A stretch of DNA of 64,000 nucleotides from Limnohabitans sp. T6-5 (lineage in GTDB: Bacteria > Pseudomonadota > Gammaproteobacteria > Burkholderiales > Burkholderiaceae_C), in the NCBI RefSeq assembly GCF_003063315.1, contig NZ_NERV01000001.1, positions 992,001-1,056,000 on the forward strand. The letters run 5' to 3'. Positions 2,209-43,150 of the stretch are shown piece after piece. The notes under the pieces are model-generated. The model saw nothing but the letters and a program-made list of their open reading frames with translations. It was not told where the DNA came from and did not search any database. Within the stretch, counting starts at the first letter, position 1. The number at the start of each line of letters is the position of its first letter. The position numbers and the translations under genes are program-made.

Positions 2209-3489
2209 TCAGGTACGGACTTCACCTTCGCCCAGCACCACGTACTTGAGCGAAGTCAGGCCTTCGATGCCGACCGGGCCCCGAGCGTGGAACTTGTCGG
2301 TGCTGATGCCGATTTCGGCCCCCAGCCCGTACTCGAAGCCATCGGCAAAACGGGTGCTGGCGTTGACCATGACGCTGGACGAGTCCACCTCGCGCAAAAA
2401 GCGCTGGGCGTGCATGTGGTCGCGGGTCAGGATGGCTTCGGTGTGGTGGCTGCTGTAGTGGTTGATGTGGGCAATCGCCTCATCCACCCCTTCAACCACC
2501 TTGACGCTGATGATGGGCGCGAGGTATTCCTCGGACCAATCCTGCTCGGTGGCGTCTTTCAGGTTCGCGCCGCTGACCTGGCTCAAGATGGCCTTGGCCT
2601 TGGGGCAGCAACGCATCTCGACGCCTTTGGCTGCGTAAATGGCGCCAATCTTGGGCAAAAACTCACCCGCCACACCGCGCGCCACCAGCAGGCTTTCGCT
2701 CGCGTTGCAGGGGCTGTACTTTTGGGTCTTGGCGTTGTCGGCCACGCGGACCGCCATGTCGATGTCACAGGGCTCGTCCACATAGGTGTGGCAATTGCCG
2801 TCCAGGTGCTTGATGACGGGCACTTTGGCCTCGGCGCTGATGCGCTCGATCAAGCCCTTGCCGCCACGCGGAATGATCACGTCCACATACTGCGGCAAGG
2901 TGATCAGCTGGCCCACAGCGGCCCGGTCGGTGGTTTGCACCAGCTGCACAGCGTTGACGGGCAAACCGCTTTCGGTCAGGGCTTGCTGCACCAGCAACGC
3001 CAGCGCCTTGTTCGACTCGATCGCCTCGGAGCCGCCGCGCAAGATGCAGGCGTTGCCGCTCTTGATCGAGAGGCTGGCTGCTTCGATGGTCACATTCGGG
3101 CGACTCTCGAAAATCATGCCGAACACGCCAATGGGCACACGCATCTGACCCACACGGATGCCGCTGGGCATTTGCTTCATGCCCAGGATCTCGCCGATCA
3201 CGTCGGGCATGGCGGCCAGCTGTTCGCAGCCTTGGGCACAGGTCTCCAGCACCTTGGGGGTGAGCTTGAGGCGGTCCACCATGGGCTCAGACAAGCCATT
3301 GGCCTGGGCACGGGCCAAGTCTTTGGCGTTGTCGTGCTGCAAGGCATCAATGTTTTCACGCAGCAAATCAGCCAATCGGCGCAAGGCCTGGTTCTTGACA
3401 GCAGCCGAGGCCTTGGCCATCAAGGCAGAAGCTATCTTGGCCTGCAGCCCCAGGGCCTTCACATGTTCAGCGGTGTTCAGATCGGTCAT
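2209..3489 (-). CDS. proA: Gamma-glutamyl phosphate reductase (proline synthesis)
   Basis: Reduces gamma-glutamyl phosphate with NADPH to glutamate semialdehyde, the second step of proline synthesis. The 426 residues from [14 protein letters not shown] are the usual ProA length. Conserved ALDH-superfamily blocks include [31 protein letters not shown], the [11 protein letters not shown] region, and the catalytic-cysteine region [12 protein letters not shown]. The reading frame is open far upstream into the repeat array, but the ATG at 3489 matches the family start. proB is not adjacent, so proA stands alone here, with the six-copy REP array immediately upstream of its promoter region. Confidence 0.97.
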
Positions 3490-3600
3490 GGGGTCATTTT
3501 CGCAGATGCGGCGGCCGGGTTCTTTGAAAGAAATATGTCGCTGCTTTGAGGGTTTATCAGGTCGGCACCGAGGCCGCAGACAAGCGGTGACTTGGAGTTT

Positions 3601-4440
3601 TGTAGGTCGGTGGTCGAAGACCCCGACATGGGCACGCCACGCGCTCAGGCCCATGCAGCTGGTGCAGGTGATCGGGCAAATGTCGGACTCTTCGAGTGCC
3701 GACCTACGGGTGCATTGATTGCTGCGACGACACTGGCTTGGGGTTTTGTAGGTCGGTGGTCGAAAACCCCGACATGGGCAAACCATGCGCTCAGGCTCAT
3801 GCAGGCGGTGCAGGTGATCGGGCAAATGTCGGACTCTTCGAGTGCCGACCTACGGGTGCATTGATTGCTGCGACGACACTGGCTTGGGGTTTTGTAGGTC
3901 GGTGGTCGAAGACCCCGACATGGGTGGGCCACGCGCTCAGGCCCATGCAGGTGGTGCAGGTGATCGGGCAAATGTCGGACTCTTTGAGTGCCGACCTACG
4001 GGTGCATTGATTGCTGCGACGACACTGGCTTGGGGTTTTGTAGGTCGGTGGTCGAAGACTCCGACATGGGCAAACCCTGCGCTCAGGCCCATGCAGGCGG
4101 TGCAGGTGAACGGGCAAATGTCGGACTCTTCGAGTGCCGACCTACGGGTGCATTGATTGCTGCGACGAAACGGGTTTGGGGTTTTGTAGGTCGGTGGTCG
4201 AAGACTCCGACATGGGCAAACCCTGCGCTCAGGCCCATGCAGGCGGTGCAGGTGATCGGGCAAATGTCGGACTCTTCGAGTGCCGACCTACGGGTGCATT
4301 GATTGCTGCGACGACACTGGCTTGGGGTTTTGTAGGTCGGTGGTCGAAAACCCCGACATGGGCAAACCATGCGCTCAGGCTCATGCAGGCGGTGCAGGTG
4401 ATCGGGCAAATGTCGGACTCTTCGAGTGCCGACCTACGGG
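3601..4440. repeat. Six tandem 146-bp units of paired GTAG-type REP hairpins
   Basis: Units begin at 3601, 3747, 3893, 4039, 4185 and 4331, spaced exactly 146 bp; the last stops after 110 bp. Each unit is a 110-bp palindromic element plus a 36-bp spacer ending CTTGGGGTTT. The element starts TGTAGGTCGG and ends CCGACCTACGGG. Each arm folds on itself: left stem GTCGG-(T)-GGTC, loop GAA, GACC-CCGAC; right stem GTCGG-ACTC, loop TTC, GAGT-(G)-CCGAC. This is a BIME-like array of REP sequences carrying the 5' GTAG tetranucleotide. Copies 2 and 6 share private variants, as do copies 4 and 5. Open frames across it arise only from repetition, since 146 is not a multiple of three. It fills the proA-holA gap (3490-4504); I see no gene there. 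Confidence 0.93.
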
Positions 4441-4504
4441 GGGATTTTTTCGGCGGTGAAACGGATGGACCGACGTGCAACGCTTATTTGGCGCTGGGAC
4501 AGGC

Positions 4505-5557
4505 TCAGCGCACGATGCAAAAGCGCGAAAAGCGCACGGCCAGGCGTTGCAGGGCTTGCCAAGGATCGGTGGGCCAGTCGGCCACTTTCAGGCCTTTGAC
4601 GATGCCGTCGACCTGGTGGGCCGCTTGCAGCAGGCCGTTCAGTCGGGCTTCGGTCATGCGGGGCAATACGCGCTCGAACAGGCGTTCGCGCGGCCCCCAC
4701 ACGCGCTGCTCGCGCAAGGCCATGGGCATGGGTTTGCCTGCGGCGATGGCATCCTTGACGCGTTTCAAGGCGCGGATGTCTTCGGCGATGGTGTAGTGCA
4801 CCAGCACGGCTGCCTCGCCTTCGGCCTGCAGGCCGTCAAGCATGCGCTGCACCCGGGCCACTTGCCCGGCCAGCACAGATTCAGAGAGTTTGAACACGTC
4901 GTAGCGCGCCACATTGAGCACGGCCGATTCGACTTGTGCCTGCGTCAGCTCGCCGGGCGGATGCAGCAAACCGAGCTTTTGAATCTCCTGATGGGCCGCG
5001 AGCAGGTTGCCTTCGACCCGATCGGCAAAAAACTGCAGGGTGCGCTGGCCTTCTTCGCCTGCTGCCACGTTTTGCCCTTGGCGTTGCAGGCGCTGGGCAA
5101 TCCATTGGGGCAAGGCATGGCGTTCGATTGGCTCGACGGGAATCACGACGCCGCCGCCTTCGAGTGCAGTGAACCACGCCCCCTTTCTGGTGGCCGCATC
5201 CAGGCTGGGCAGTAAAAACAGGGTCAGGGTCGAGTCGTTGCCTTGCGCCGAAGCCACCAATTGCTGGATGGCGGTGCTGCCTTCCTTGCCCGGTTTGCCG
5301 GTGGGAATGCGTACCTCGACGATCTGCTTGTCGGCAAACAGGCTGAGCGAGCCGCCTGCGGCCAGCACTTCGCTCCAGTCAAAGTGGGCACCCGACACGG
5401 TGTGCACCGAGCGCTCGGTATAACCCTGGGCGCGGGCGCTGGCACGGATGGTGTCGGCAGCTTCCTGCATCAGCAAGGCTTCGTTGCCGTGCAAGGTGTA
5501 GAGGCTGCGCAAGCCCTTTTGCAGGTGCGCAGCAAGCTGTGGAAGGGCCAGTTGCAT
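4505..5557 (-). CDS. holA: DNA polymerase III delta subunit (clamp-loader)
   Basis: The delta subunit of the clamp loader opens the beta sliding clamp during replication. The 350-residue protein begins MQLALPQLAAHLQKGLRSLY and has the HolA layout: an early YTLHGNEALLMQEAADTIR block typical of the N-terminal AAA+-like domain, then a helical C-terminal part ending in LQRLAVRFSRFCIVR. It lies 8 bp after lptE on the same strand, and the leuS-lptE-holA order is conserved in many proteobacteria, which supports both calls. It is the last gene of this leftward run before the REP array. Confidence 0.95.
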   Translation of the reverse strand: MQLALPQLAAHLQKGLRSLYTLHGNEALLMQEAADTIRASARAQGYTERSVHTVSGAHFDWSEVLAAGGSLSLFADKQIVEVRIPTGKPGKEGSTAIQQLVASAQGNDSTLTLFLLPSLDAATRKGAWFTALEGGGVVIPVEPIERHALPQWIAQRLQRQGQNVAAGEEGQRTLQFFADRVEGNLLAAHQEIQKLGLLHPPGELTQAQVESAVLNVARYDVFKLSESVLAGQVARVQRMLDGLQAEGEAAVLVHYTIAEDIRALKRVKDAIAAGKPMPMALREQRVWGPRERLFERVLPRMTEARLNGLLQAAHQVDGIVKGLKVADWPTDPWQALQRLAVRFSRFCIVR

Positions 5558-23833: not shown

Positions 23834-23949
23834 GTAGGTCGGCGGCTTCAGCCCCGACATGAAGCCTGCGCCAAAACCACCAACGTCGGAGCTGAAGCTA
23901 CCGACCTACGGGGAGGTATTTGTAGGTCAGCGGCTTCAGCCCGGACATG
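23834..23949. repeat. Three GTAG-type REP hairpins
   Basis: Three stems of the same family as the 3.6-kb array. GTAGGTCGG-C-GGC-TTCA-GCC-CCGAC starts at 23834. An inverted copy GTCGG-AGCT-GA-AGCT-A-CCGAC ending CCTACGGGG starts at 23885. A third direct copy starts at 23922 with stem mutations. They lie between the convergent TSUP and SGNH genes. The loop is TTCA/TGAA rather than the TTC/GAA of the tandem array. Confidence 0.85.
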
Positions 23950-36721: not shown

Positions 36722-36789
36722 GTCGGACTCTTCGAGTACCGACCTACAACATACCCTCTCCGTAGGTCGGTACTCGAAGGGTCCGACAT
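36722..36789. repeat. Pair of REP hairpins, TTC/GAA loop type
   Basis: GTCGG-ACTC-TTC-GAGT-A-CCGACCTAC and, after about 15 bp, GTAGGTCGG-T-ACTC-GAA-GGGT-CCGAC point toward each other. They use the same loop type as the tandem array at 3.6 kb, but in reversed order. They lie between the SLAC1-type gene and DUF3422. Confidence 0.85.
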
Positions 36790-43043: not shown

Positions 43044-43150
43044 GCAGGTCGACGGTCAAAGCCCCCCAACATGCGACCGCATGATCACAACGCTTGCCCT
43101 GGCTCCACCTGTGCTGCAAGGCATGTCGGAGTCTTCGACCACCGACCTAC
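43044..43150. repeat. Partly decayed REP pair
   Basis: GCAGGTCGACGGTCAAAGCC-CCCCAAC (decayed left arm) and GTCGG-AGTC-TTC-GACCA-CCGACCTAC (intact right arm) enclose about 55 bp. They belong to the same REP family, in the 360-bp gap between the RND operon and yqjD. Apart from the upstream palindrome, nothing else was found in that gap. Confidence 0.7.

Follow-up and report, generated by a model that had tools for sequence, protein, structure and literature searches.

In Escherichia coli, BIME-2 elements consist of REP pairs in tandem, RAYTs are flanked by BIMEs (PMC2817692), and gyrase cleavage sites are over-represented in BIME-2 (PMC6379681). In Pseudomonas fluorescens SBW25, near-identical REPINs are found in tandem together with flanking sequence, and clusters lie beside RAYT genes; the largest of the 16 ordered REPIN clusters comprises four REPINs and one REP, and a table in the same paper also lists two clusters of 12 REPs (PMC3116915). 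In the GTAG REP super-family, head-head dimers recur in tandem along with stretches of adjacent DNA that vary in length (PMC3733652); a term search in the main text of that paper returned no mention of Comamonad-, Polaromonas or Acidovorax. Our searches of the open-licence literature found no paper on REP elements in Limnohabitans and none related to the concerted evolution of repetitive extragenic palindromic elements, and for REP sequences and RAYT in betaproteobacteria they returned only PMC2817692.

The array described here is a tandem array of this known REPIN/BIME-2 type, found in Limnohabitans sp. T6-5. The window, by which we mean the whole 64-kb stretch of the host genome that was analysed, contains a single TRF array (period 146, 5.8 copies, 94% matches, no indels, score 1525; Table 1), and exact 146-nt spacing of its units was confirmed by a direct-repeat search. 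Twelve exact REP-pattern matches, + and - in strict alternation and with edges running from 3602 to 4437, are separated by inner gaps of 50 nt (spacers) and outer gaps of 40 nt (linkers). Each of the six units spans 106 nt and contains two 28-nt REPs in inverted order, their GTAG tags pointing outward, and unit plus linker (106 + 40 = 146) equals the period. In 6/6 units the left REP is of G type (..TGGTCGAAGACC..) and the right REP of A type (..CACTCGAAGAGT..), with point variants. The 28-nt GTAG hairpin has the attributes of a REP (a 20–40 nt palindrome, a GTAG-like 5′ tag and high copy number), the unit those of a REPIN (REPs inverted with GTAG outward, capable of a single long hairpin), and the array those of a BIME-2-like element (REP pairs in tandem, alternating orientation, two REP types). 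The array lies between a holA-like gene and an aldehyde dehydrogenase family gene that we take to be proA. A first-pass annotation of this DNA had recognised six near-identical BIME-like units at exact 146-bp spacing, each with two REP hairpins, between leftward proA and holA; TRF, the repeat search and the REP pattern bear out this structure, the 12 alternating REPs of two types its BIME-like nature, and the - strand of both genes its setting. We regard open reading frames across the array as mechanical by-products of the repetition, and Rfam gave no match within 3300–4800 at E up to 1. A weak REP-like stretch at 3557–3583 (4 mismatches), close to the array on its left, is perhaps a decayed REP or a chance resemblance, and the window contains three more single REPs (23834–23860, 36762–36789 and 43123–43150), one belonging to a 27-nt type and the other two to the 28-nt type.

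Table 1. Features of the array and its surroundings (positions in the window).
Feature	Position	Strand	Remarks
Tandem array, six units, period 146	3591..4440		TRF + repeat search
REPIN unit 1, 106 nt	3602..3707		G-type REP 3602-3629, 50-nt spacer, A-type REP 3680-3707
REPIN unit 2, identical to unit 6	3748..3853		
REPIN unit 3	3894..3999		
REPIN unit 4, one difference vs unit 5	4040..4145		
REPIN unit 5	4186..4291		
REPIN unit 6, identical to unit 2	4332..4437		
Linker, units 4/5	4146..4185		judged least altered right-flank + left-flank junction copy
Left native flank, recurring as linker tail	3591..3601		
Right native flank, recurring (diverged) as linker head	4438..4467		
proA-like gene	about 2209..3489	-	aldehyde dehydrogenase family PF00171
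holA-like gene	4505..5557	-	DNA polymerase III delta subunit, PF06144

Folding of the REPs and of whole units was compared with that of shuffled sequences. When the REPs of unit 1 were folded singly, 1/200 shuffles was as good for each REP. For the 106-nt REP pair, on the two of the six units that were shuffled (1 and 4), z ranged from -5.4 to -6.8 on either strand and 0/200 shuffles were as good. Folding as RNA gives -46.1 kcal/mol on the - strand for the pair of either unit 2 or unit 6, and -54.1 on the + strand for that of unit 2, with z about -5.

The REP family is abundant in the host. A strict REP pattern covering both the 27-nt and 28-nt types gave 241 + 264 = 505 matches in the 4.17-Mb genome and 0 with the reversed-pattern control; 393 copies are of the 28-nt type. 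With the window unit as query, 237 matches were obtained across the genome, six of them accounted for by the array itself. In 32 stretches taken around unit matches, a non-random sample of the genome, together with the window, TRF found 39 arrays with at least 3 REPs, 29 of them with periods of 113–163 nt and the longest with 13.4 units. Six units at 146 nt are ordinary for this genome. The view that such an array is unusual, REP pairs normally occurring once or twice, finds no support, given both the 38 further arrays in the stretches read and the published tandem REP-pair arrays in E. coli (BIME-2) and P. fluorescens, as far as these are covered in the cited texts (PMC2817692, PMC3116915). 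As described in those sources, the host resembles E. coli BIME-2 in its tandem pairs of two REP types and in a RAYT with such arrays on both sides, and SBW25 in its tandem near-identical REPINs that include flanking sequence and in REPIN clusters beside a RAYT; it differs from both in REP sequence, and from SBW25 also in its arrays of up to 13.4 units and in the 39 arrays with at least 3 REPs. The GTAG super-family, as set out in PMC3733652, is matched by GTAG-tagged REPs arranged as head-head dimers in tandem with flanking DNA.

Across arrays, the head-head spacer is narrow in length, 49–55 nt in 30 of the 35 arrays, and diverse in sequence, with identity of 0.52 between arrays (0.48 when shuffled) vs 0.92 within them. 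One A-type and one G-type REP make up 183/215 head-head pairs (de-duplicated, from the host-genome loci examined; most derive from arrays and are hence non-independent), the remainder being A-A (2), G-G (1) and pairs with 27-nt or unclassified REPs. No isolated REPIN with flanks was retained by our filter among the loci examined, and no target-site consensus was derived.

A search for a Y1 (RAYT) transposase, which the first-pass annotation had suggested, was successful. The host genome has three Y1_Tnp genes. One, at C3:222486-222995, scores 178 bits against the REP-associated tyrosine transposase model NCBIfam NF047646 (cut-off 80) and matches PDB 4er8 (TnpArep) with E 1.8e-40; 28-nt REPs of the window type lie on both its sides, partly as tandem arrays, so that this RAYT is flanked by the same REPs, as a cognate enzyme should be. 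The second gene (C2:1228908-1229381) is bordered on either side by a 27-nt REP. With 79.6 bits the third falls just short of the cut-off of 80, and its 3.3-kb locus contains no pattern-matching REP. Among the 90 genomes of the genus set, the host's own included, the 28-nt type is present in 7: the host (393 copies), G042 (620), G046 (71) and four others (1–3). A RAYT at least 82% identical is confined to the host and G042, the two genomes richest in this REP. G046, with 71 copies and a best RAYT match of 56%, shows that enzyme and REP copy number match imperfectly, a point against a simple one-to-one link between RAYT and REP. The 27-nt type is found in 36/90 genomes, namely all 12 with a RAYT match of at least 53% and 24 of the other 78. 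One of these 24, G048, has 123 copies of the 27-nt REP and, in the search made, no RAYT closer than 32%; this could be an orphan REP population or reflect a missing stretch.

We compared the holA-proA gap among relatives, of which the closest named one by holA is Limnohabitans planktonicus II-D5 (97% aa). The gap, measured with the holA stop codon included, is 1018 bp with six units in the host. It is 427 bp with two units, one REP tag being degenerate, in L. planktonicus, and 285 bp with one unit in G046, these two copy numbers coming from draft assemblies (90 and 150 contigs) in which repeats may have collapsed. Beyond the host, REPs are present in the gap only at L067 (L. planktonicus; same sequence as L149, from G042) and L148 (G046). 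At 90 of the 93 loci with both genes (63 named and 27 genus, in partly overlapping sets, at least 6 of 29 genus loci sharing their gap sequence with a named locus) there is no REP in the gap. Of the 80 named loci, 64 have both genes and 16 lack proA in the stretch, and the other genus loci have both in 29/29 cases; holA matches came from 88 of the 90 genus genomes, and the genus loci are the best 30 of these 88, the host's own among them. REP-free gaps measure 32–271 bp (median 60) at the 27 genus loci and 11–3138 bp (median 56, several over 1 kb) at the 63 named ones.

The linkers bear directly on how the array arose. Only the linker between units 4 and 5 departs, at few bases, from the sequence common to the other four, and all five keep the same register. 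This linker (4146–4185), chosen for testing as the least altered of the five, aligns to the first 25–29 nt of the right flank, with the final 10–12 nt of the left flank coming next, scoring 16.5 with the flanks of G046 and 19.0 with the window's own; 200 random pairs of places in the window averaged -1.75, reached 7.5 at most and were never as good (0/200). Given a linker that matches right flank plus left flank, most likely a single REPIN was duplicated together with its native flanks and then amplified. GGAT is common to the two flanks in G046 and might represent a microhomology breakpoint, as is only suggested by a linker in which the expected GGAT junction is not exactly kept. The linker of units 4/5 and that of L. 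planktonicus share the block ATTGCTGCGACGAAAC, which is not seen in the three right flanks. On the strength of this common block, the first duplication probably predates the split between host and L. planktonicus, and G046 may have lost a unit.

Sequence differences among the units point to exchange inside the array. No difference separates unit 2 from unit 6 over their 106 nt, a single site separates unit 4 from unit 5, and 4–10 sites separate each of the other 13 pairs, giving five distinguishable sequences among six units. Five sites are fixed in 6/6 host units and different in all three relatives' units. A tree tentatively groups the six host units together (support 84/97). Given the identity of 2 and 6 and the near-identity of 4 and 5, exchange within the array is likely; the identical units lie four places apart, a pattern that agrees with conversion or with exchange of several units at once. 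Three sites are polymorphic both in the host array and between the two L. planktonicus units, so that homogenisation, though likely, is incomplete. The proposal of copying within the array, made earlier from the variants that 2 shares with 6 and 4 with 5, is thus probable, also in view of the array-fixed sites.

Taken together, the comparisons suggest three steps. A 106-nt REPIN, a G-type/A-type heterodimer with GTAG outward, would first have inserted between holA and proA in the common ancestor of the host species, L. planktonicus and G046, presumably through a RAYT, to judge by its family. A tandem duplication of 146 nt, comprising about 11 nt of left flank, the REPIN and about 29 nt of right flank, would have followed. 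The array would then have grown to six repeats, with homologous misalignment (through unequal exchange or conversion) moving sequence among them, as the 2=6 and 4/5 identities and the sites fixed only in the host array would indicate. We hold it highly probable that a RAYT-dependent REPIN inserted once, was duplicated in tandem with its flanks, grew to six units and underwent internal exchange, with an effect that is most likely modest. In a read-through transcript each unit can form a long hairpin, which could make the holA 3′ end more stable or lessen read-through into proA, and the array may bind gyrase, as BIME-2 do in E. coli. The beginnings of REPIN arrays can rarely be read; here 1, 2 and 6 units stand at one site in three close genomes, with linkers resembling the flanks of that site, so that the general finding of REPINs repeated along with adjacent DNA becomes a specific instance of how an array grows and is homogenised, one that can be put to the test. 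An annotator would see an ordinary repeat.

Selection could instead maintain the array as a regulatory element, separating holA and proA transcription or serving as a gyrase or supercoil site. Strong DNA and RNA hairpins on both strands favour this view, and so does the enrichment of gyrase cleavage sites in the E. coli BIME-2 as reported in PMC6379681; a gyrase role is thereby possible by analogy only. Against it, a scan of 3350–4700 gave no promoter-like site where 0.3 were expected, and the single terminator-like site (1.5 expected) lies outside the array, at 4537–4523; the block to the spread of transcription or supercoiling into proA that the first-pass annotation envisaged is thus no more than a possibility. 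REPs are absent from nearly all gaps compared, unit number varies (1, 2 or 6) in the three close genomes having the array, and 38 further arrays lie at other host loci in the stretches read. We therefore consider a selected role distinctly unlikely. As an intrinsic terminator, the array was rejected: it has no short GC hairpin followed by a T run.

Repeated RAYT-mediated insertion of adjacent REPINs, rather than duplication in place, could also have built the array. A RAYT with REP arrays on both its sides is at hand, and in 5/595 array pairs at different loci both spacer and linker are shared (spacer identity at least 0.79, linker at least 0.78), so that linker-containing pieces do move. Independent insertions would not, however, copy flanks, whereas the linkers here are alike, in register and resemble the flanks of their own site. 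The window array belongs to none of the five sharing pairs; against the other 34 arrays compared, its best spacer match is 0.70, with a linker of 0.43 in that same partner. Such an origin thus seems very improbable. That misassembly expanded a one- or two-unit locus is scarcely credible: tandem repeats are error-prone and units 2 and 6 are identical, but there are five distinguishable unit sequences, the 7-contig assembly also holds arrays of up to 27 REPs, and a two-unit array occupies the same site in L. planktonicus.

Duplication with native flanks, which we favour for the window array, was sought in the 37 arrays with at least 4 REPs. Twenty-nine strictly alternating arrays were scored and 8 dropped; the window array was among the latter, as a looser pattern calls the weak REP-like stretch at its left, and was tested separately as above. 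The scored arrays divide into 15 with an even and 14 with an odd number of REPs, classes that vary with the looseness of the REP pattern (two arrays differ between patterns). Among even arrays, a missing gap derived from the flanks, with no control as good, was found in 7/15, most clearly in the array at C3:58187 (score 43 over 53 nt). The other 8/15 do not clearly stand out, two of them having 2/46 and 4/43 controls as good, and the flank-duplication route is therefore not general. Odd arrays were expected to end exactly on REPs, which held in part only: repeat-like similarity continues past one end with z of 4.5 to 7.7 in 5/14 and of 3.0 to 3.5 in 4 more, and no firm model was drawn.

Similarity between arrays at different loci raises the speculative idea, which we rate as unlikely, that in this Limnohabitans clade whole arrays, rather than single REPINs, are becoming the unit of dispersal, with multi-unit copies carrying their linkers to other loci. 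If so, array growth and spread may be coupled, driven by RAYT or by recombination, a situation not described for REPINs in those parts of the literature that we compared. The array at C1:525291 (locus L206) is 85% identical over 858 nt to that at C3:58187 (L221) on a different contig, spacer and 22-nt linker being shared, a likeness that suggests the spread of multi-unit pieces. The arrays at C3:226964 and C4:207029, also on different contigs and inverted, have a linker identity of 1.00 and a spacer identity of 0.79. Two of the five sharing pairs consist of nearby arrays in opposite orientation, with 2.3 and 3.9 kb between their starts (C1:525291/527574 and C1:903435/907374). Neighbouring arrays that are mutually inverted copies are seen in L206 (892–1716 and 3175–3726) and L211 (936–2607 and 4875–5525), with best matches of 90% over 554 nt and 88% over 666 nt, respectively. 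Between the inverted arrays of L206 lies one longer reading frame, and between those of L211 lie two genes that, judged by eye, probably encode an acyl-CoA dehydrogenase and a LysR-type regulator.
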